Assembly: GCF_023734115.1 (NCBI RefSeq)
Contig: NZ_AP025737.1
Span: 2,046,001-2,110,000, forward strand
Length of the DNA stretch: 64,000 bases
Reading direction: 5' to 3'
DNA from: Herbiconiux sp. L3-i23
GTDB lineage: Bacteria > Actinomycetota > Actinomycetes > Actinomycetales > Microbacteriaceae
This document shows, in pieces, positions 7,773-16,264 of this stretch. The notes beneath the pieces were generated by a model. It did no database searches and was not told the origin of the DNA. It saw only the letters and a program-made list of their open reading frames with translations. Position 1 is the stretch's first letter. Each line of letters begins with the position of its first letter. The position numbers and the translations under genes were made by a program.

Positions 7773-8927
7773 TCAGGCGATGGCGGGCAGGTCGGCTGGT
7801 GGGGATGCGACCGGCAGATCGTCGAGATCGCCCTCGTCGACGCCGAGCTCGCGGTAGAGCGTCCGCACCGCGTCGATCACCGCCCCCATCGCACCGGAGA
7901 ACTCGCCCAACCGGGCAGGCACCAGACGCGGAGCGATCCGCAGGTTCGCCTCGAGCGCCGACTGGTATCGCTGGAGGTCGCTCGCGAGCGATTCGGCGAT
8001 ACCGCCGCCGAGCACGATGACCTCCGGCTCGCTCGACACCGAGATCGCGGTGAGGACGATCTGCAGGGCGTGGTCGAACTGGGCGCGCAGCGCGAAGAGC
8101 GAGGGATCGGTGAAGAGCTCCTCGGGAGCGTCGATGGTGACACCCGATTCGGCGGCGCGACGGATGATGCCGGGCCCGGTGACCATGTGCTCGAGGCGCG
8201 CGCCGAACGGACCGATGGGCAGCTGACCGAACTCCCCGACCAGCCCGTGCTTGCCATGGATGATGCGTCCGTCAATGGCGAGAGCGGCGCCGAGGCCGGC
8301 GCCGATGGTGACCATCGCGGCCGCCGGGGTTCCGGCCGCCGCACCCATCCTCTGTTCGCCGAGCAGGGCGTAGTTCGCGTCGTTGTCGAGCCTGACCTCG
8401 AGGCCGAGGCGCCGCTCGAGCGCCTCGACGAATTCCGCCGACTCGACCTGCACGAGGTTGGGGGCGTTCGACACGGTTCGAGCCTCCGACACCGCGCCAG
8501 GAAGGCCGATCGCCACTGCTCCCAGGTCGCGAGGGTCGTCCTCGACCATCGCCCCCACGATGTCGGCCAGCCATTCCCCGAGGCGGGCGGGGTTGAGGCT
8601 CGATGGGGTCGGGAGCTCGGCGCGCTGCAACGGCTCGGCCGCGAAGTCCCCGATCACGATGCGGGTGTTCGAGGCTCCGAGATCGATTCCGACGACGAGG
8701 CTGCGTTCGGCGACGACATCGAGCTGCACGGCGCGGCGCCCTCGGTTCTCGGAGACGATCTCGGACGCCTCGTGGATGACTCCTTCGACGACGAGGGCAT
8801 CGACGGTCCTCGAGACCGTTGCCGCGGAGAGGCCGGTGCGCGCCGCGATGGCCTTGCGGCTCGTCGGCCGGTTCCGGAGCAGATCGGCGAGGACCGAACG
8901 GCGACTGAAGTCGCGAGCGTCCGTCAT
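7773..8927 (-). CDS. ROK-family transcriptional repressor
   Basis: A 384-residue protein: an N-terminal winged helix (about residues 5-65, with SRKAIAARTGLSAATVSRTV as the recognition region) and a C-terminal sugar-kinase-like ROK domain with VVGIDLGASNTRIVIG and RLDNDANYALLGE. The usual ROK zinc motif (CXCGXXGC) is absent; the corresponding stretch reads GPFGARLEHMVTGPG. The start at 8927 has a strong GGAGG site. It is divergent from the sugar-binding protein gene and most likely represses the adjacent ABC/catabolic operon until a sugar or sugar phosphate binds. Confidence 0.88.
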   Translation of the reverse strand: MTDARDFSRRSVLADLLRNRPTSRKAIAARTGLSAATVSRTVDALVVEGVIHEASEIVSENRGRRAVQLDVVAERSLVVGIDLGASNTRIVIGDFAAEPLQRAELPTPSSLNPARLGEWLADIVGAMVEDDPRDLGAVAIGLPGAVSEARTVSNAPNLVQVESAEFVEALERRLGLEVRLDNDANYALLGEQRMGAAAGTPAAAMVTIGAGLGAALAIDGRIIHGKHGLVGEFGQLPIGPFGARLEHMVTGPGIIRRAAESGVTIDAPEELFTDPSLFALRAQFDHALQIVLTAISVSSEPEVIVLGGGIAESLASDLQRYQSALEANLRIAPRLVPARLGEFSGAMGAVIDAVRTLYRELGVDEGDLDDLPVASPPADLPAIA

Positions 8928-9000
8928 CACTGCCTCCTTTGCTCTCTCGACGAACGCAAAGCTAGCGGAAAATGCCGTCGATCGCGCTTCTCGCGGTCCT

Positions 9001-9056
9001 GAAACACGATGGAAACACTTTGCCCGTTGACTTTGCTTGCGCAGTGAAACCAAACT
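9001..9056 (+). promoter_or_regulatory. Promoter and candidate operator of the sugar ABC/YhfX-like operon
   Basis: TTGACT (9027-9032) and CAAACT (9051-9056) form a -35/-10 pair with an 18-base spacer, 45 bp upstream of the binding-protein ATG. Just upstream is a direct repeat GAAACAC at 9001-9007 and 9012-9018 (11-bp period, one helical turn), with a further GAAAC at 9046-9050. These are plausible binding sites for the divergent ROK regulator; that assignment is inference. Confidence 0.5.
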
Positions 9057-9100
9057 GTCGACGTCCGCTCCATCGTTCCCCTCATCGAGAAGGTCCTCCC

Positions 9101-10219
9101 ATGCAGCAAACCCCCCGCGCCGTGCGGCGAGGTGCCCGCGCGGCCGCCGCCGCGTCGATCGCACTGGCCCTCGCCCTCACCTCCTGCGCCGCCCAACCCG
9201 CCGAGGAGGCCGAGTCCGCCCCGGCCACCGAGCCGAGCCTCGAGTTCGTCGGCCCCAATGGCGAGGTCCCCGGCACGCTCGACGAGCTGACCCTCACCGA
9301 TGAGGAGACCACGTCGGTGCGGGACGGCGGTTACACGGCCGCATTTGTCTGGCACACCTCGTCCGAGTTCGTCTCCGCCGTCGAGAAGGGTGCGACCGAG
9401 CAGTTCGACGATCTCGGCATCGAGGTCGTCGCCAGCACCCAGGCCGACTTCGATGCGGCGACCCAGGCGAACAATCTGCAGAGCGTGCTCGCGCTCGATC
9501 CCGACATCATCGTCACCATCGCCGTTGACGCCACCTCGGCGGCCGCAGCGTTCCAGCCCGCGGTCGACGCCGGGAAGACGCTGGTGATCATGACCACCCC
9601 GCCCGCCGGGTACGAAGCGGGCGACCAGTTCGTCTCGATCGTCACCGAGTCGCTCACCGAGGCAGGACGAGCCAACGCCGAGATCCTGGGCGACGCGCTC
9701 GGCGACGAGGGCCAGGTCGGCTACATGTTCCACGACGCCGACTTCTGGTTCACCAATCAGCGCGACGAAGCGTTCAAGTCGTGGCTCGCCTACGAGTACC
9801 CGGACATGGAGATCGTCGCCGAAGAGGGCTTCGCCGACGAGGCCCGCACCGAAGAGGTGGCCGCGGCGATGATCGCCCGCAACCCCAACATCAAGGGCAT
9901 CTACGTCTCGTGGGCGACGGCAGCGCAGGGCGTGCTCTCGGCGCTGCGCAACGCCGGACGCAGCGATGTGAAGGTGGTCACCAACGACCTCGACGCCACC
10001 CTCGCCGCCGACATGGCCGCGGGCGGCAATGTCGTCGGCCTGGTCGGGAACGGCTCGCTGGACATCGGCCGTGGGCTCGCCATCGCCGCCGCGTACGGTG
10101 TCCTCGACAAGGAGGCGCCGGCGCTCGTCGCCTCGCCGCCCGTCAAGGTGACCACCGACAACCTCGACGAGGCGTGGCGCGAGGATTACGGAACCGACCT
10201 CCCCGCCAGCGTGAAGTAG
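9101..10219 (+). CDS. ABC transporter sugar-binding lipoprotein (periplasmic-binding protein family 1/4-like)
   Basis: A 372-residue exported protein with an Arg-rich, Ala-rich signal peptide and lipobox ALTSCAA (Cys at about residue 28). The body has the alternating Rossmann-like pattern of ribose/xylose-type binding proteins: the hinge sequence DPDIIVTIAVDATSAAAAF, the segment VGYMFHDADFWFTN and NIKGIYVSWATAAQGVLSAL. It should capture the substrate outside the cell for the permease at 12220 and ATPase at 14454. The start is the ATG preceded by GAGAAGG. An intercistronic stem-loop follows the gene, which may help keep binding-protein mRNA in excess. Confidence 0.88.
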   Translation: MQQTPRAVRRGARAAAAASIALALALTSCAAQPAEEAESAPATEPSLEFVGPNGEVPGTLDELTLTDEETTSVRDGGYTAAFVWHTSSEFVSAVEKGATEQFDDLGIEVVASTQADFDAATQANNLQSVLALDPDIIVTIAVDATSAAAAFQPAVDAGKTLVIMTTPPAGYEAGDQFVSIVTESLTEAGRANAEILGDALGDEGQVGYMFHDADFWFTNQRDEAFKSWLAYEYPDMEIVAEEGFADEARTEEVAAAMIARNPNIKGIYVSWATAAQGVLSALRNAGRSDVKVVTNDLDATLAADMAAGGNVVGLVGNGSLDIGRGLAIAAAYGVLDKEAPALVASPPVKVTTDNLDEAWREDYGTDLPASVK

Positions 10220-10253
10220 GGTTCGGGCCGCTCACACCGATCAGCACCACCCC

Positions 10254-10283
10254 GGGGCGGTCCGGCTCGAACCGGATCGCCCC
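10254..10283 (+). promoter_or_regulatory. Intercistronic stem-loop after the binding-protein gene
   Basis: GGGGCGGTCCGG (10254-10265), loop CTCGAA, CCGGATCGCCCC (10272-10283): 12 pairs with one G-U. It is not followed by a U tract. Such elements after a binding-protein gene often lower read-through or stabilise the upstream message; the role here is inferred. Confidence 0.5.
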
Positions 10284-10307
10284 TCCCCTCTCTCGAACAG
10301 GTACCCC

Positions 10308-11315
10308 GTGGCTCACGTCCAGACCGTCCTCGGTCCCGTGCCCGCCGCCGATCTCGGCCGCGTCATGGCACACGAACACCTCCTCTCCCTCACCCCCGGC
10401 CCGTGGCTCCCGGCCGGCGGCGGGCTCGACCCGGTCGCCATCGCGGTGGCCGCCCTCGACGGTCTGACCGACCGGGGCTTCGGCACCATCGTCGACCTCA
10501 GCCCCTACGGTGTCGTCGGCCGGGATGCCGACGGATCGAACACCGCTCTGCTCGCGGAGATCTCGCGACGCAGCGGACTGCACGTGGTCTCCGGAACCGC
10601 CCTCTATCTCGAGTCGTGGACCCCGGCATGGGCAGCCGGGGCGTCGATCGACGAGCTCGCCGACAGGCTCACCTCCGACCTCGACACCGGCATCGGCGGC
10701 TCCGGGGTCCGCGCGGGCATCCTCGGGGAGCAGGCCACCGGGCTCGACACGATGACCGAGCACGAAGAGCGCACGCTCCGTGCCGCGGCTCGGGCGATGC
10801 GACGCACCGGCGCCGCCCTCATGACCCACACGACGCACGGCACGCTCGCGCTCCGACAGATCGAGATCCTCGCCGACGAGGGCGTCGCGCTCGACCGCGT
10901 GGTGATCGGTCATCTCGACACCCAACTCGACCCCGCGCTCGTGCGCCGCGTCCTCGGAACCGGCGCGAACGTCGCGATCGACACCATCGGCAAGCAGGAG
11001 TGGGACTTCTTCCTCGGCCCGCCCTCAGACCGGGGCGACGGCGAGTTCACCAAACGCGCCTTCCACCGCGCGGACTCCGGTCGCGCCGACCTCGTCGCCC
11101 GCCTCGTCGCCGACGGCTTCGGCGACCGCGTCGTGCTCGCGCAGGACCTCACCGGTGCGGAGATCTGGATGAACCCGTCGACCCACGGCATGCACGGGTA
11201 CCGCTACCTCCACGACGTGTTCGCGCCGATGCTCGCGGAACGCGGCGTCACCGCCGACCAGTACGAACAGCTCATCAGGCACACCCCCGCGCGACTGCTC
11301 GAGGTCGGGCAGTGA
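10308..11315 (+). CDS. Phosphotriesterase-family metal-dependent hydrolase (Php/YhfV-like)
   Basis: A 335-residue amidohydrolase-superfamily barrel. Visible metal ligands are His22 and His24 (MAHEHL), a bridging acid Glu141 in AGILGEQ where true phosphotriesterases have a carboxylated lysine, His174 (LMTHTTHG), His202 (VIGHLD) and Asp280 (LAQDLTG). Glu at the bridging position is the pattern of phosphotriesterase homology proteins such as E. coli Php, not of paraoxon hydrolases. Lactonase or phosphoester hydrolase activity on a sugar-derived intermediate is likely. Start is GTG with an ACAGG site; the stop overlaps the next gene by four bases. Confidence 0.87.
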   Translation: MAHVQTVLGPVPAADLGRVMAHEHLLSLTPGPWLPAGGGLDPVAIAVAALDGLTDRGFGTIVDLSPYGVVGRDADGSNTALLAEISRRSGLHVVSGTALYLESWTPAWAAGASIDELADRLTSDLDTGIGGSGVRAGILGEQATGLDTMTEHEERTLRAAARAMRRTGAALMTHTTHGTLALRQIEILADEGVALDRVVIGHLDTQLDPALVRRVLGTGANVAIDTIGKQEWDFFLGPPSDRGDGEFTKRAFHRADSGRADLVARLVADGFGDRVVLAQDLTGAEIWMNPSTHGMHGYRYLHDVFAPMLAERGVTADQYEQLIRHTPARLLEVGQ

Positions 11316-12223
11316 CCGCGCCGCTCTTCGCCGGACTCGATCTCGGCGGCACGAAGATCCACGGCGCGATCGCGGGCGGCGACGGCGTGATCCTCGCCGA
11401 AGCCCGCATCCTGACGACGGGCGACGTCATCGACCGGGTCGCCGAGCTCGAGGCGCAGCTCGTCGACGCCGTCGGCGCGACCACCGCGTCGATCGTCACC
11501 ACCGTCATCGGCGGCGCGGGGGTCCCCGCCGAATCGGGCGGCTTCGACCTCAACTCGAATCTCGAGCTGTCCGACGCGAAATCGTTCGGCGTCGACCTCG
11601 CCGACCGGCTGGGTCATCGCGTCCTGATCGAGAACGACGTCAACATCGCCGCGATCGGCGAGCTGCACTACGGCATCGGCGCCCGCTACGACGACTTCGT
11701 CGTCGTCGCCTCCGGCACCGGGATCGGCATGGGCATCGTCGTCGGGCGCACCCTGGTGCGCGGCGCGCGCGGAGCCGCCGGGGAGATCGGCTTCCTCCCC
11801 CTCGGCACCGACCCGTTCGACCGGGCGAATCACCGACGAGGACCCTTCGAAGAGGCGGTCGCGGGCGACGCGCTCCAGGGACGCTTCGTCGCGGTGCACG
11901 GGCGTGCGCTCACCCCGGTGGAGATCTTCGACTCCGGAGACGGCGATCCCGCCACCGCGGCGGCGATCGATGAGCACGCCCGATTCCTCGCCCTTGGACT
12001 CCTCGCCGTCCGGGCGGTGATCGACCCCGCCGCCGTCGTGCTGATGGGCGGCATGGGGTCCCGCCCCGAGTTGCTCGCTCCTCTGCAGCGGCACCTCACC
12101 GACCTCGGCGCCGGCGACCTCCCGGTCGAACCGAGCACCCTCGGCACCCGTGCGCCGGTCCTCGGCGCCCTCCATCTCGCTCGCACCGCAGCGAACGCGC
12201 TCCCGGAAGGACTCCCCCGATGA
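11312..12223 (+). CDS. ROK-family sugar kinase
   Basis: A 303-residue protein without a DNA-binding domain, so most likely an ATP-dependent kinase of a sugar or amino sugar. It shows the phosphate-binding motif GLDLGGTKIHGA (residues 8-19), the catalytic Asp109 in LIENDVNIAAIGE and the glycine-rich SGTGIGMGIVVG loop. The zinc-binding cysteines of classical ROK kinases are missing; the segment reads NHRRGPFEEAVAG. Its GTG start overlaps the phosphotriesterase-like gene (GTGA) and its stop overlaps the permease (ATGA), so it belongs to the operon. Substrate unknown. Confidence 0.85.
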   Translation: MTAPLFAGLDLGGTKIHGAIAGGDGVILAEARILTTGDVIDRVAELEAQLVDAVGATTASIVTTVIGGAGVPAESGGFDLNSNLELSDAKSFGVDLADRLGHRVLIENDVNIAAIGELHYGIGARYDDFVVVASGTGIGMGIVVGRTLVRGARGAAGEIGFLPLGTDPFDRANHRRGPFEEAVAGDALQGRFVAVHGRALTPVEIFDSGDGDPATAAAIDEHARFLALGLLAVRAVIDPAAVVLMGGMGSRPELLAPLQRHLTDLGAGDLPVEPSTLGTRAPVLGALHLARTAANALPEGLPR

Positions 12224-13221
12224 CCATCTCCACCGACCCCGACACGAAACGCACCGGCACGAGCCCCGCGGCGTGGGGCGACCGCCTGCGCGGCTTCGAC
12301 TGGCGCGCCTCGGTCGTCTACATCGGATTCGTGCTCGTCTTCCTGTTCTTCGCCGTCACGCAGGCCCAGTACTTCCTGACGCCCACGAACCTGACGAACG
12401 TGGTCATCCAGGCGGCCCCCATCGCGATCATGGCCGTCGGCGCGGTGTTCGTGCTGAGCACCGGAGAGATCGATCTCTCCATCGGCTCGACGGTCGCGCT
12501 CGCGGCACTGGGCGCCGGCCTCACCATCCAGACGACCGGGCAGTGGTGGCTCGGCGCCGTCGTCGGGCTCGCCGTCGGCGCCGCGGTCGGCGCGATCAAC
12601 GGGCTCTTCGTCACCCTCGTGCGCCTTCCGTCGTTCCTCGTCACCCTCGCGATGATGGGGCTCGTCACCGGACTCGCGCGACAGCTGACCGACCTGCAGT
12701 CCGTGCCCGTGACCGACCCGACCTTCGTGTGGCTCTTCGGCGGCGGCACGCTCCTCGGCATCCCCACCATCATCTGGTGGACCGCGGTGGTGACGGCACT
12801 CGGCTGGCACGTGCTGCGACAGCGACGCCTCGGCGCCCACGTGCTGGCCGTCGGCAACAACACGTCGGCCGCTCGGGTCAGCGGTATCCGCGTCAACCGC
12901 GTGCGCATGTGGGTCTTCATCGCCAGTGGCGTGACCGCCGCGATGGCGGCGCTGCTCTACACCGGTCGCCTGCAGGGCGCGCGGTACACCCTCGGTGAGA
13001 GCGACCTGATGTCGGTGCTCGCCGCGGTGATCATCGGTGGCACCGCTCTTGCCGGCGGGAAGGGGTCGATCATCGGCGCCCTGATCGGCTCGCTCCTGAT
13101 GAGCATGATCAACAACGGACTGATCCTCGCCGGCCTCAACGTCTCGCAGCAGATGATCGTGCGAGGCATCATCATCCTCGTCGCCGTGTCCCTGTCGCTG
13201 CGCGGCAAGAAGAACAGTTAG
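12220..13221 (+). CDS. ABC transporter permease, ribose-type (RbsC-like)
   Basis: A 333-residue inner-membrane protein with about 8-10 helices, belonging to the branched-chain/ribose permease fold. Typical family segments are VFVLSTGEIDLSIGSTVA, VTLVRLPSFLVTLAMMG, VLAVGNNTSAARVSGI and VIIGGTALAGGKGSIIG. It is the only permease gene in the operon, so a homodimer is expected as in ribose importers. It is translationally coupled to the ROK kinase; nine bases separate it from the yhfX-like gene. Confidence 0.92.
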   Translation: MTISTDPDTKRTGTSPAAWGDRLRGFDWRASVVYIGFVLVFLFFAVTQAQYFLTPTNLTNVVIQAAPIAIMAVGAVFVLSTGEIDLSIGSTVALAALGAGLTIQTTGQWWLGAVVGLAVGAAVGAINGLFVTLVRLPSFLVTLAMMGLVTGLARQLTDLQSVPVTDPTFVWLFGGGTLLGIPTIIWWTAVVTALGWHVLRQRRLGAHVLAVGNNTSAARVSGIRVNRVRMWVFIASGVTAAMAALLYTGRLQGARYTLGESDLMSVLAAVIIGGTALAGGKGSIIGALIGSLLMSMINNGLILAGLNVSQQMIVRGIIILVAVSLSLRGKKNS

Positions 13222-13230
13222 GCGGACCCC

Positions 13231-14457
13231 GTGTTCCTCTCCCTCCTCACCCGCCGCAACCCGGGTCTGCTCCGCGCCGCCGTCGACCTGCACCGCTCGG
13301 GTCAACTTCCGCCGAACACCTACGTCCTCGACCTCGACGCGATCCAGCGCAACGCCGCGGCTCTCGCCGCCGAATCCGCGCGGCTCGGTCTCACGCCATA
13401 TGCCATGACGAAGCAGATCGGTCGGAACCGTGACGCATCCGCCGCGATCGTCGCGGGTGGGATCAGCCACTCGGTGGGTGTCGACCTCGAGTGCACCATC
13501 GCCGCCGCCGCCGGCGGACTCGCGGCCGGTCACGTCGGTCACCTCGTCCAGATCCCGCGCTCGTCCGCCGATGTCGCCGCGGCGATACGCCCCCTGCACT
13601 GGACGGTGTTCTCCGAGGCCAAGGCCGCCGAGGCCGCCGCTGCCGCCGACCGCGCCGGCTTCGTGCAGGACATCCTGGTGCGCGTCGCCGCTCCCGGCGA
13701 CCGCTTCTACCGCGGCCACGAGGGCGGTGTCCCCGCCGCGGACATCGTCGCCGTCGCCGACCGCATCGACGCCCTTCCCGGCGCGCGATTCGCGGGGGTG
13801 ACCAGCTTTCCGGCGACCCTGTTCGATGCCGAGACCGGCACGGCCCGGTCGACGCCAAATCTCGCAACCCTCACCGCGGCGAAGGAGGCGCTCCTCGCGG
13901 CCGGGCGCTCCAGCGTCGAGCTGAACGCCCCGGGCACCACCTCGGTCTCGGTGCTCGCGACGCTCGCCGAGGCCGGCGCCACGCAGGTCGAGCCGGGCCA
14001 CGGTCTCACGGGCACGACCCCCCTGCACGCGGTCGAGGACCTCGTCGAAGATCCGGCCATCGCCTACATCAGCGAGGTGTCGCACCTCTACGACGGAGAC
14101 GCCTACGTCTTCGGCGGCGGTCTCTACGTCGATCCGGTGCTCGGCGGCACCACCACCGATGCGCTGATCGTCGGCGCCGACGACGATGTCGAGACCGCGA
14201 CCCGGTTGCGCGTCGACATGCCCGCTGCCGAGGCGATCGACTACTACGCGACCATCCCGACCAAAGGGCAGACCGTCACCGCGGGCGACACCGTCGTCTT
14301 CGGCTTCCGACCGCAGGTCTTCGTCACTCGAGGACTCACCGCCGGCATCCGCGGCCTCTCGACCGGACGCCCCGAACTCGCCGGCGTCTGGTCGGCCGAC
14401 GGCGCCACCCCCCTCACCATCGATGACGCCCTTCGCGGGGCCGGAAGGCAGTCATGA
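13231..14457 (+). CDS. YhfX-like PLP-dependent alanine racemase-fold protein
   Basis: A 408-residue fold-type III PLP protein. Lys61 in YAMTKQIGRN is the expected Schiff-base lysine, and the order of segments (LPPNTYVLDLDAI, HLVQIPRS, STPNLATL, ELNAPGTTS, VEPGHGLTGT, DAYVFGGGLY, QVFVTRG) matches the E. coli YhfX family rather than ordinary Alr. YhfX has no established reaction; the fold suggests racemisation or decarboxylation of an amino-acid-like group. It sits between the permease and ATPase genes, overlapping the latter by four bases, so it works on the imported substrate. Start is GTG. Confidence 0.82.
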   Translation: MFLSLLTRRNPGLLRAAVDLHRSGQLPPNTYVLDLDAIQRNAAALAAESARLGLTPYAMTKQIGRNRDASAAIVAGGISHSVGVDLECTIAAAAGGLAAGHVGHLVQIPRSSADVAAAIRPLHWTVFSEAKAAEAAAAADRAGFVQDILVRVAAPGDRFYRGHEGGVPAADIVAVADRIDALPGARFAGVTSFPATLFDAETGTARSTPNLATLTAAKEALLAAGRSSVELNAPGTTSVSVLATLAEAGATQVEPGHGLTGTTPLHAVEDLVEDPAIAYISEVSHLYDGDAYVFGGGLYVDPVLGGTTTDALIVGADDDVETATRLRVDMPAAEAIDYYATIPTKGQTVTAGDTVVFGFRPQVFVTRGLTAGIRGLSTGRPELAGVWSADGATPLTIDDALRGAGRQS

Positions 14458-15203
14458 CCTCCACAGCAACCTCATCGCCGCTCCGGCTCGAGGGCATCAC
14501 CAAGCACTTCGGCGGCGTCGTCGCCATCAAGCAGTTCGACCTCGAGGTCAACGCGGGCGAGATCGTCGCCCTGGTGGGCGACAACGGCGCGGGCAAGTCG
14601 ACGCTCGTCAAGATCATCTCCGGGCTCTACCAGCCGACCGCCGGCAGCATTCAGCTGAACGGTGAGCCGGTGTCGTTCAACGACGCGGCCGATGCGCGGG
14701 CGAAAGGGGTCGAGGTCGTCTACCAGGACCTGGCGCTCGTCGATCAGCAGCCCGTCTACATGAACCTCTTCCTCGGGCGTGAGCTGCGCAAGGGCCCGTT
14801 GCGCACCCTTGACCGCAAGGAGATGCAGCGCCAGACGCAGGGCCTCGTCGACGACCTCGACGTGCGCATCCCCTCCGCCAAGGCGATGCTCGCCGACCTC
14901 TCGGGCGGTCAGCGCCAGGGCATCGCGATCGCCCGTGCCACGCATTGGGCTTCGGGTCTCGTGCTGATGGACGAGCCGACCGCGGCGCTCGGCGTGGCCG
15001 AGACCGGCAAGGTCGAAGAGGTCATCCTGAAGCTGAAGCAGCGGGGCGCTGCCGTGCTGATCGTGTCGCACAACCTCGACCAGGTCTTCCGCATCGCCGA
15101 CCGGGTCACGGTAATGCGCCGCGGCACCCAGGTGGGGACGCGCGAGACCGCCGGCACCGACAAGAACGAGATCATCGCCATGATCACGGGGCTCACCTCA
15201 TGA
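14454..15203 (+). CDS. ABC transporter ATPase, single-domain ribose type
   Basis: A 249-residue ATPase with Walker A GDNGAGKST (42-50), signature LSGGQRQ (149-155), Walker B LVLMDEPT with Glu174, and switch His in IVSHNLD. Ribose-type importers usually use a fused two-domain ATPase (RbsA); this one has only one domain, resembling the FrcA class, and must work as a homodimer. It overlaps its neighbours at both ends by four bases. Confidence 0.92.
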   Translation: MTSTATSSPLRLEGITKHFGGVVAIKQFDLEVNAGEIVALVGDNGAGKSTLVKIISGLYQPTAGSIQLNGEPVSFNDAADARAKGVEVVYQDLALVDQQPVYMNLFLGRELRKGPLRTLDRKEMQRQTQGLVDDLDVRIPSAKAMLADLSGGQRQGIAIARATHWASGLVLMDEPTAALGVAETGKVEEVILKLKQRGAAVLIVSHNLDQVFRIADRVTVMRRGTQVGTRETAGTDKNEIIAMITGLTS

Positions 15204-16264
15204 GCGGCGCCGACAGCACCACCCCCGGGGCGCTCATCCGGGCGGAGATCGCCGAGCAGCCCGCAGCGTGGCGCAGACTGCTGACTGCGGGCCGCGAGCA
15301 GATCATCGCGGCGGCGACGCTGCTGCGCGACACCGACCCCGAGCTGATCGTGTTCGCGGCGCGCGGCACCAGCGATCATGCGGCGATGTACGCGCAGTAC
15401 CTCGCCCACGTTCGGCTCGGCATCCCTGCGATGCTCGCGACCCCCAGCGCGTTCACCGCCTACGGGGCCCGCCTGAGTTACCCGCGCGCGGTGCTCGTCG
15501 CCGTGACGCAGTCGGGCGAGTCACCCGATCTGATCGAGACGGTGAGGGTTGCGAAGTCCGCCGGCGTCCCGGTGATCGCGGTCACCAACGTGGCCGAGAG
15601 CATGGTCGCGGGACTCGGCGACGTACCCCTCGACCTGGTGGCGGGGCCCGAGCTCTCGGTCGCGGCGACCAAGACCTACACCGCCGAGCTGCTCGCTCTG
15701 CATGCCGTCATCTCGCTCGCCGCGGGCGATCGCTGGGACGACGTCGCCGCCCGCATCGGCGCTGTCGCGGACGCGGCGGAGAAGCTGCTCGCGGGCGAAC
15801 ACCCGGGGTGGAACGCTCTCGCCGACACCGTCGCAAAGACCGATCGCATCCTCGTGGTCGGCCGCGGCTACTCGATGGCGAGCGCTCGAGAAGGCGCCCT
15901 CAAGCTGATGGAGACGAACGGCATCGCCGCGTCGGGGTGGAGCGCCGCGGATGCGACGCACGGGCCGCTCGGCCAGGTGCGCCCGGCCACGCTCGTGTTC
16001 CTGCTGACGGCGTCGCCCAGCACCCGTGCGGCCGCCGCCGCGTTCGGTGAGAAGGCCTCGGCGCTCGGCGGCACGCTCGTCGAGGTCGGCGGGCCGGCTT
16101 CGACGCCGCTGCACCTCGCGCTTCCGACCGACGGCGTGGACGAGACTCTGATCCCGGTGCTGGAGATCATCCCGTTCCAGCTGCTCGCCCTGGATGCCGC
16201 GCTCCGCCGCGGTCTCGACCCCGACAATCCGGAAGGGTTGGCCAAAGTCACCAAGACCCGGTGA
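15200..16264 (+). CDS. Double-SIS-domain sugar-phosphate isomerase/deaminase
   Basis: A 354-residue protein with two SIS domains (about 35-165 and 200-335). FAARGTSDHAAMYAQYL, VTQSGESPDLIETV and ELSVAATKTYTAELLALH are hallmarks of the GlmS C-terminal (isomerase) half; no glutaminase domain is present. Family members of this length include NagB-II glucosamine-6-phosphate deaminases, AgaS and the FrlB deglycases. In this operon it should act on the phosphorylated product of the ROK kinase. It is the last gene of the operon; its stop abuts, with no spacer, the stop of the convergent gene at 16265. Confidence 0.85.
   Translation: MSGADSTTPGALIRAEIAEQPAAWRRLLTAGREQIIAAATLLRDTDPELIVFAARGTSDHAAMYAQYLAHVRLGIPAMLATPSAFTAYGARLSYPRAVLVAVTQSGESPDLIETVRVAKSAGVPVIAVTNVAESMVAGLGDVPLDLVAGPELSVAATKTYTAELLALHAVISLAAGDRWDDVAARIGAVADAAEKLLAGEHPGWNALADTVAKTDRILVVGRGYSMASAREGALKLMETNGIAASGWSAADATHGPLGQVRPATLVFLLTASPSTRAAAAAFGEKASALGGTLVEVGGPASTPLHLALPTDGVDETLIPVLEIIPFQLLALDAALRRGLDPDNPEGLAKVTKTR

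Follow-up and report, generated by a model that had tools for sequence, protein, structure and literature searches.

A conserved operon of Herbiconiux sp. L3-i23 joins YhfX and a PTE-family hydrolase to a sugar importer and may serve N-acylated amino sugars

A 64,000-nucleotide stretch of Herbiconiux sp. L3-i23 (assembly GCF_023734115.1, contig NZ_AP025737.1, positions 2,046,001 to 2,110,000; hereafter the window) carries a run of seven genes for a sugar-type ABC importer, a ROK sugar kinase, a metal hydrolase of the phosphotriesterase (PTE) family, a YhfX-type pyridoxal 5'-phosphate (PLP) enzyme and a double-SIS enzyme, next to a divergent ROK-family repressor gene. The operon is genuine, as the same arrangement is found in other genomes, which excludes chance. 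We read it, from sequence comparison, as an uptake and catabolism operon under repressor control for an N-acylated, that is amide-linked, glucosamine-type sugar that would be used via glucosamine-6-phosphate, and we put the probability of this reading at about one in two. An N-acyl amino sugar is suggested as the substrate because proteins of amino-sugar type (SIS, NagB-I and a NagK-like protein) and of amide-hydrolase type (the PTE protein with its bridging Glu, and M20 amidohydrolases) are found in corresponding places of the operon and its relatives.

In the pathway that we infer, from the substrate and every reaction to the order of the steps and the repression, the ABC importer would bring in the N-acylated sugar and the ROK kinase would phosphorylate it. 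The PTE-family hydrolase, or M20 in relatives, would then cleave the amide and remove the acyl group, and the SIS enzyme, or NagB in relatives, would convert glucosamine-6-phosphate to fructose-6-phosphate and ammonia. YhfX would act on the amine freed by the hydrolase, which may be the 2-amino sugar, e.g., by C2 epimerisation into glucosamine, or the amino acid that had formerly made up the acyl part. The ROK repressor would keep the promoter blocked unless it has bound substrate or product.

Recurrence of the operon across genomes

A wider scan returned 413 stretches encoding a YhfX relative, the best 80 of which were kept, biasing the sample toward window-like loci. Plasmid records gave 19 matches; six of these were examined, one of them lacking gene annotation. 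A total of 94 loci (numbered with L; window included) were searched by tblastn with the operon proteins, M20, NagB-I, an amino-acid (APC) permease and the E. coli yhf and frl proteins. A YhfX match was present in 93 of them, and L089, without such a match, was excluded. Clusters flanked on each side by over 2.5 kb were counted as complete, giving 58 clusters including the window's.

The gene order permease-YhfX-ATPase is found in 51 of the 58 complete clusters and at least one ROK gene in 56. The first-pass annotation of the window, made without database searches, had tied a PTE and a YhfX protein to a sugar importer, a kinase and a SIS enzyme. This association is supported by the recurring operon, and the co-occurrence of these families in other genomes, on which the annotation had staked its proposal, was looked for and found. 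The YhfX domain PF21279 itself is rare, with carriers in three of 99 genomes of relatives and five of 396 across the phylum, the window's own genome being in both counts. Three of the six other carriers (L002, L087 and L088) show the order permease-YhfX-ATPase, two (L004 and L086) the E. coli-type order yhfS-yhfX-yhfW, and the sixth, L089, holds a YhfX end fragment beside M20. In a Blastococcus metagenome-assembled genome (L071:5867-7883), two Gfo/Idh/MocA oxidoreductase genes lie upstream of those for the ROK kinase and YhfX, with an amino-acid permease gene downstream.

The PTE-family hydrolase and its M20 counterpart

At E <= 0.001, the only PTE-family match in the two-contig genome of 3.18 Mb is the one of this operon. 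The predicted ligand positions H22, H24, E141, H174, H202 and D280 are conserved in no fewer than 90% of the 46 rows of an alignment that counts the window twice. Residues at these places bind metal in the family, and we take Glu141 to stand at the metal-bridging place. Both residues highlighted by the first-pass annotation, Glu141 and, in YhfX, Lys61, are conserved, the latter presumably as the PLP lysine.

An M20 amidohydrolase is encoded in 19 of the 93 loci, never together with PTE; one M20 protein of a relative is WP_011536882.1 of Ruegeria sp. TM1040. Among the complete clusters, 34 have PTE alone, 16 M20 alone, eight neither and none both. Two M20 copies, with 135 and 177 bits, had their best model in the ArgE/DapE deacylase subfamily, below its cut-off of 217.6. 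On a YhfX tree, built by a quick method and containing several long branches, the PTE/M20 state changes at least four times among carriers, and seven times with absence as a third state. We consider non-orthologous replacement, M20 for PTE and likewise NagB for SIS (see below), a good hypothesis.

One locus scored as neither, L094 from Cetobacterium, does encode a homologue of Php, along with an amidase-like gene; counting Php, the numbers become 35, 16, seven and none. L094 is a plasmid yhf operon in which the extra gene, annotated as amidase, lies between YhfT and the PTE homologue (L094:5994-7025); its Pfam match is weak (21.3 bits, cut-off 27).

Amide hydrolysis within the PTE family has a precedent in the mammalian amidase PTER. 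According to the accessible text of the report, PTER hydrolyses N-acetyltaurine and is also active on some N-acetyl amino acids, with rates below 20% of that for N-acetyltaurine, and its metal residues are H26, H28 and E169 per the authors' docked model (PMC11374699). In the accessible text of a further report, PTER is connected with N-acetyl-beta-alanine (PMC13311154).

The SIS enzyme and its NagB counterpart

GlmS and NagB-II models rank best for the SIS protein, below cut-off (NagB-II model NF046059, 180.2 bits vs 430). Among solved chains it is nearest to 3fj1 and 7kqa, for which no function is given; next come 8eol, which bears the name glucosamine-6-phosphate deaminase, then 3hba and chains of GlmS. 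Residues K235, E238, H254 and K349 are retained by 90% or more of the 39 rows of an alignment that includes the window twice; we take them to be the catalytic residues of the GlmS/NagB-II isomerase fold, with roles as in GlmS. When E. coli FrlB was aligned with the SIS protein, the Glu and the His were present and both lysines absent; the SIS protein is not FrlB-like. The best reading is a NagB-II/GlmS kind rather than a FrlB kind of enzyme, with predicted activity on glucosamine-6-phosphate.

In 13 of the 93 YhfX loci, all from one clade that is mainly Acidimicrobiia by record titles, NagB-I is found in a cluster without SIS. The complete clusters comprise 26 with SIS alone, seven with NagB-I alone, 25 with neither and none with both. 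On the YhfX tree, the SIS/NagB state changes once among carriers and 13 times with absence counted. The NagB gene comes 27-36 bases after the ATPase gene in five loci and 782-965 bases after it in seven others; in L079 it follows a ROK gene. NagB of L061 stayed below the cut-offs of both a glucosamine-6-phosphate deaminase subfamily model (268 bits vs 326) and the nagB equivalog (212.5 bits vs 236.9).

These observations bear on two other explanations. In the first, the substrate would be an Amadori/Heyns-type adduct, in which a sugar is attached to the amine of an amino acid. Import, a kinase and a SIS deglycase would deal with it much as in frl and fra; the amidohydrolase would trim the adduct on its amino-acid side, and YhfX would convert the amino acid once it is set free. 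The accessible text on the fra operon lists a transporter, a kinase, a SIS-type deglycase and a putative asparaginase (PMC4072780), an amino-acid permease is present in eight of 93 clusters, and in E. coli K-12 the frl (fructoselysine) operon directly adjoins the yhf operon (L005:1911-14345). However, the window's SIS enzyme keeps both GlmS/NagB-II lysines that FrlB lacks, and the stand-in found for it is NagB-I, not a deglycase, so that we regard such an adduct as rather unlikely. In the second, a plain sugar or lactone would be degraded by the PTE protein as sugar lactonase and the SIS protein as aldose-ketose isomerase, with YhfX as an accessory. The importer models are indeed of ribose/monosaccharide type, and the PTE family contains a phospho-furanose lactonase, whose model gives the window's protein 57 bits against a cut-off of 630. 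The conservation of the deaminase-type lysines in SIS, the presence of deacylase-type M20 where PTE is absent and of NagB where SIS is absent all argue against this explanation, which we find improbable.

The YhfX-type protein

The window's YhfX matches E. coli YhfX (4kbx) at E 4e-68 and is 36-38% identical to it. Its AlphaFold2 model (pLDDT 93) aligned with 4kbx in Foldseek at a TM-score of 0.89 and 36% identity, followed by D-threonine aldolases and hydroxyaspartate dehydratase (TM-score ~0.65), the first alanine racemase appearing at rank 21. Similarly, a profile search of the PDB returned E. coli YhfX and then hydroxyaspartate aldolase and D-threonine aldolases (E 9e-6 to 8e-4, about residues 25-256). 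K61, E254-P-G, R360, Q362 and R367 are invariant across 36 YhfX sequences.

In alanine racemase, an Arg is expected at the PLP ring nitrogen; where a Glu takes that place, as it does in ornithine decarboxylase, the ring nitrogen stays protonated. In a profile-profile alignment, which did not include alanine racemase, Glu254 of YhfX aligns with the invariant Arg of three D-serine dehydratase-like proteins; the alignment covers YhfX up to residue 286 and stops short of where the C-terminal metal ligands would lie. At E <= 0.001, PF01168 and PF21279 are the only Pfam families matched by YhfX, with no alanine racemase C-terminal domain and no match to PF14031, the C-terminal domain of D-serine dehydratase and D-threonine aldolase. 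Thus, YhfX has the N-terminal PLP barrel in common with the latter enzymes, but differs from them in its C-terminal domain and in Glu254. An alanine racemase function was set aside on the basis of this domain make-up, which also questions the name alanine racemase carried by nine of the 19 plasmid matches. Among the plasmid homologues, L090, L091 and L092 (at 9001) are labelled in this way in their records.

The profile and fold neighbours are also what speaks for a substrate of the 2-amino aldonic acid type (N-acyl-D-glucosaminate kind), on which YhfX would act as dehydratase or aldolase in keeping with its D-threonine-aldolase-like N-terminal part. Such a route would make SIS and NagB needless, and YhfX has neither the PF14031 domain nor the Arg of that family; we hold it to be highly doubtful. 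A beta-elimination reaction of YhfX, with a glycosylated serine as its substrate, was likewise considered and dropped for want of support.

A second YhfX paralogue is encoded in the same cluster in three loci (L024:2754-3941, L031:12028-13221 and L037:11217-12416). These proteins are 43-48% identical to the window's YhfX, differ around the HEGG and GHGLTGTTP stretches and possibly act on a second substrate. Within our proposal of an N-acyl amino sugar, the second YhfX genes and the amino-acid permeases lean toward the amino acid as the YhfX substrate, whereas the regular presence of a sugar importer and ROK genes leans toward the freed amino sugar.

Importer and kinase

The best solved relative of the binding protein is 5dkv (E 3.8e-15). 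Transfer of a ligand from solved relatives was rejected, as all are distant (best E 3.8e-15 and 2.4e-15). The nearest solved relative of the ROK kinase is the beta-glucoside kinase 4htl. The ATPase, with 249 residues, has one ABC domain, compared to ~500 positions in RbsA-type models; in the Chloroflexi/Thermoanaerobacterales loci L055, L057, L063 and L065 the ATPase reads as a tandem pair of 510-538 residues.

In L063, a BcrAD_BadFG protein is encoded inside the operon, between the binding protein and a ROK gene with a helix-turn-helix-like start. Its best match is the N-acetylglucosamine (GlcNAc) kinase NagK (95.7 bits vs a cut-off of 370), and in this one locus the NagK-like protein may stand in for the ROK kinase. 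The ABC permease is missing from four of the eight clusters with an amino-acid permease, which in these few loci may take the importer's part. Among the complete clusters, 51 have the ABC permease, four an amino-acid permease (two of them without the ABC permease) and five neither.

Operon layout and operator

The checked reading frames give seven genes on the forward strand between 9101 and 16264; the first-pass annotation had placed these limits correctly and named all seven genes, yet counted six. Four-base overlaps are found at every junction of PTE-kinase-permease and of YhfX-ATPase-SIS, while 88 bases separate the binding protein from PTE and nine bases the permease from YhfX. All eight proteins, the divergent ROK repressor included, match a Pfam family above cut-off, which bears out the family assignments made at first reading (Table 1).

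Thirty-five divergent ROK/binding-protein regions were gathered, and 32 were left after three near-copies had been dropped. The pattern TTGACTTT is present in 20 of these 32 regions compared to 0.05 expected from letter shuffles, a contrast that is inflated by the kinship of the regions. Allowing up to two mismatches, the window's own genome has one operator site, at this operon (reversed control, 0). In ten related genomes, searched with up to one mismatch and a pattern that had been derived from those same regions, exactly one site was found in eight and none in two (controls, 0). By coordinates, the sites of all eight genomes lie inside the stretches of contig that the YhfX scan had returned as loci of this operon. 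A generic sigma-70 scan detected no promoter in the operator region. As the operator is single in the genome, the repressor seems to be dedicated to this operon alone. Expansion of the regulon via the operator was dropped, since there is no second site and hence no extra pathway gene.

Table 1 Features of the operon and its control region, in window positions.
Feature	Positions	Strand	Evidence
ROK-family repressor, N-terminal helix-turn-helix	7773-8927	-	PF00480 134.8 bits and helix-turn-helix matches; start ATG 8927
Probable operator TTTGNTTGC-N4-TGAAANCAAA	9032-9054	+	Overlaps -35-like TTGACT (9027-9032) and -10-like CAAACT (9051-9056)
Sugar-type substrate-binding lipoprotein	9101-10219	+	PF13407 (Peripla_BP_4) 114.6 bits; lipobox LTSC
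PTE-family metal hydrolase	10308-11315	+	PF02126 173.2 bits
ROK sugar kinase	11312-12223	+	PF00480 125.4 bits
RbsC-type ABC permease	12220-13221	+	PF02653 (BPD_transp_2) 133.3 bits
YhfX-type PLP enzyme, Lys61	13231-14457	+	PF21279 82.5 bits, cut-off 27; Ala_racemase_N (PF01168)
Single-domain sugar-type ABC ATPase	14454-15203	+	PF00005 107.4 bits
Double-SIS enzyme, NagB-II/GlmS kind	15200-16264	+	SIS Pfam, two stretches

Comparison with known systems

The E. coli yhf operon (yhfS-T-U-php-yhfW-yhfX-yhfY-yhfZ) resembles the window in combining YhfX and a PTE-family hydrolase in one operon. In contrast to the window, it has no ABC importer, kinase or SIS gene as annotated, and the YhfX proteins of the two kinds fall on separate sides of the tree, with long branches.

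Catabolism by nag genes or by NagK and NagB-II follows the same logic of a kinase and a SIS deaminase, and NagB-I and a NagK-like protein are present in relatives of the window. Unlike nag, the window operon has PTE, or M20 in relatives, instead of NagA and, in addition, YhfX and an ABC importer. Elsewhere in its own genome there are a nagA that passes its cut-off (232.8 vs 225.65 bits) and a nagB-like gene that does not (214.4 vs 236.9 bits). Therefore, plain GlcNAc use should not need the operon, which weakens GlcNAc as a candidate, and for the same reason an acyl group other than acetyl is probable.

The frl and fra operons for fructoselysine and fructose-asparagine have the importer, kinase and SIS enzyme in common with the window. 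They differ in that the frl genes, and the fra genes as far as these are named in the accessible text, do not include YhfX, and in that the window's SIS enzyme keeps the GlmS/NagB-II lysines.

Discussion

Several observations weigh against an operon for N-acylated glucosamine-type sugars. Both SIS and NagB are missing from 25 of the 58 complete clusters, both PTE and M20 from eight (seven counting the Php homologue of L094), and any importer or permease from five. L029, L066 and L077 have PTE, ROK genes and YhfX without an importer, L068 has YhfX without any partner, and four annotated alphaproteobacterial operons contain one ROK gene, named a regulator, without a separate kinase. The exchange of PTE and M20 amounts to a minimum of four changes and three to four independent pairs, which is below significance, and NagB is confined to a single clade. 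None of the eight proteins reached an NCBIfam cut-off among the models listed (the 25 best out of 188 in the case of the ATPase). As the PTE family also includes lactonases, this PTE protein may instead have lactone chemistry, and any role of YhfX is tentative.

The relation to yhf, as put forward in the first-pass annotation, also holds in part only: YhfX is a homologue by both domain and fold, while the hydrolase is not clearly an orthologue of Php (134.4 bits to the model PRK09875, cut-off 486), and tblastn at 1e-6 gave no match to yhfS, T, U, W or Z within the window's first 26 kb. The annotation had further suggested an amino sugar or a sugar-amino acid adduct. This gains support and is sharpened by a SIS enzyme of the NagB-II/GlmS kind and by NagB-I, M20 and NagK-like stand-ins; the substrate and the order of the steps are still what we infer.

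More tentatively, and with the odds against it, the operons may represent an undescribed catabolic route for amino sugars in several bacterial phyla. The amine would be freed by an amidase of PTE or M20 type instead of NagA. YhfX, as a PLP enzyme with a distinct C-terminal domain and a Glu in the ring-nitrogen position, would then isomerise the free amino sugar, e.g., by C2 epimerisation that turns a mannosamine-type into a glucosamine-type sugar, and deamination would follow. On this view, the yhf operon of E. coli puts the same pair of hydrolase and YhfX to a divergent use.

The RefSeq record of E. coli names both YhfX and Php putative. By titles and abstract starts among the matches listed, the open literature gave no account of this operon or of YhfX function; two papers do name yhfX (PMC4448311 and PMC10652928), and an account may exist in these or in subscription papers and preprints, which were outside this scope. 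The operon is conserved and, as far as the literature searched shows, would be an undescribed variant of amino-sugar operons. Finding the YhfX and Php families together with a kinase and a glucosamine-6-phosphate deaminase-type enzyme in a compact operon narrows their likely chemistry to amide-linked amino sugars. The operon thereby probably links two orphan families of E. coli, the Php-type hydrolase and YhfX, to amino-sugar use.

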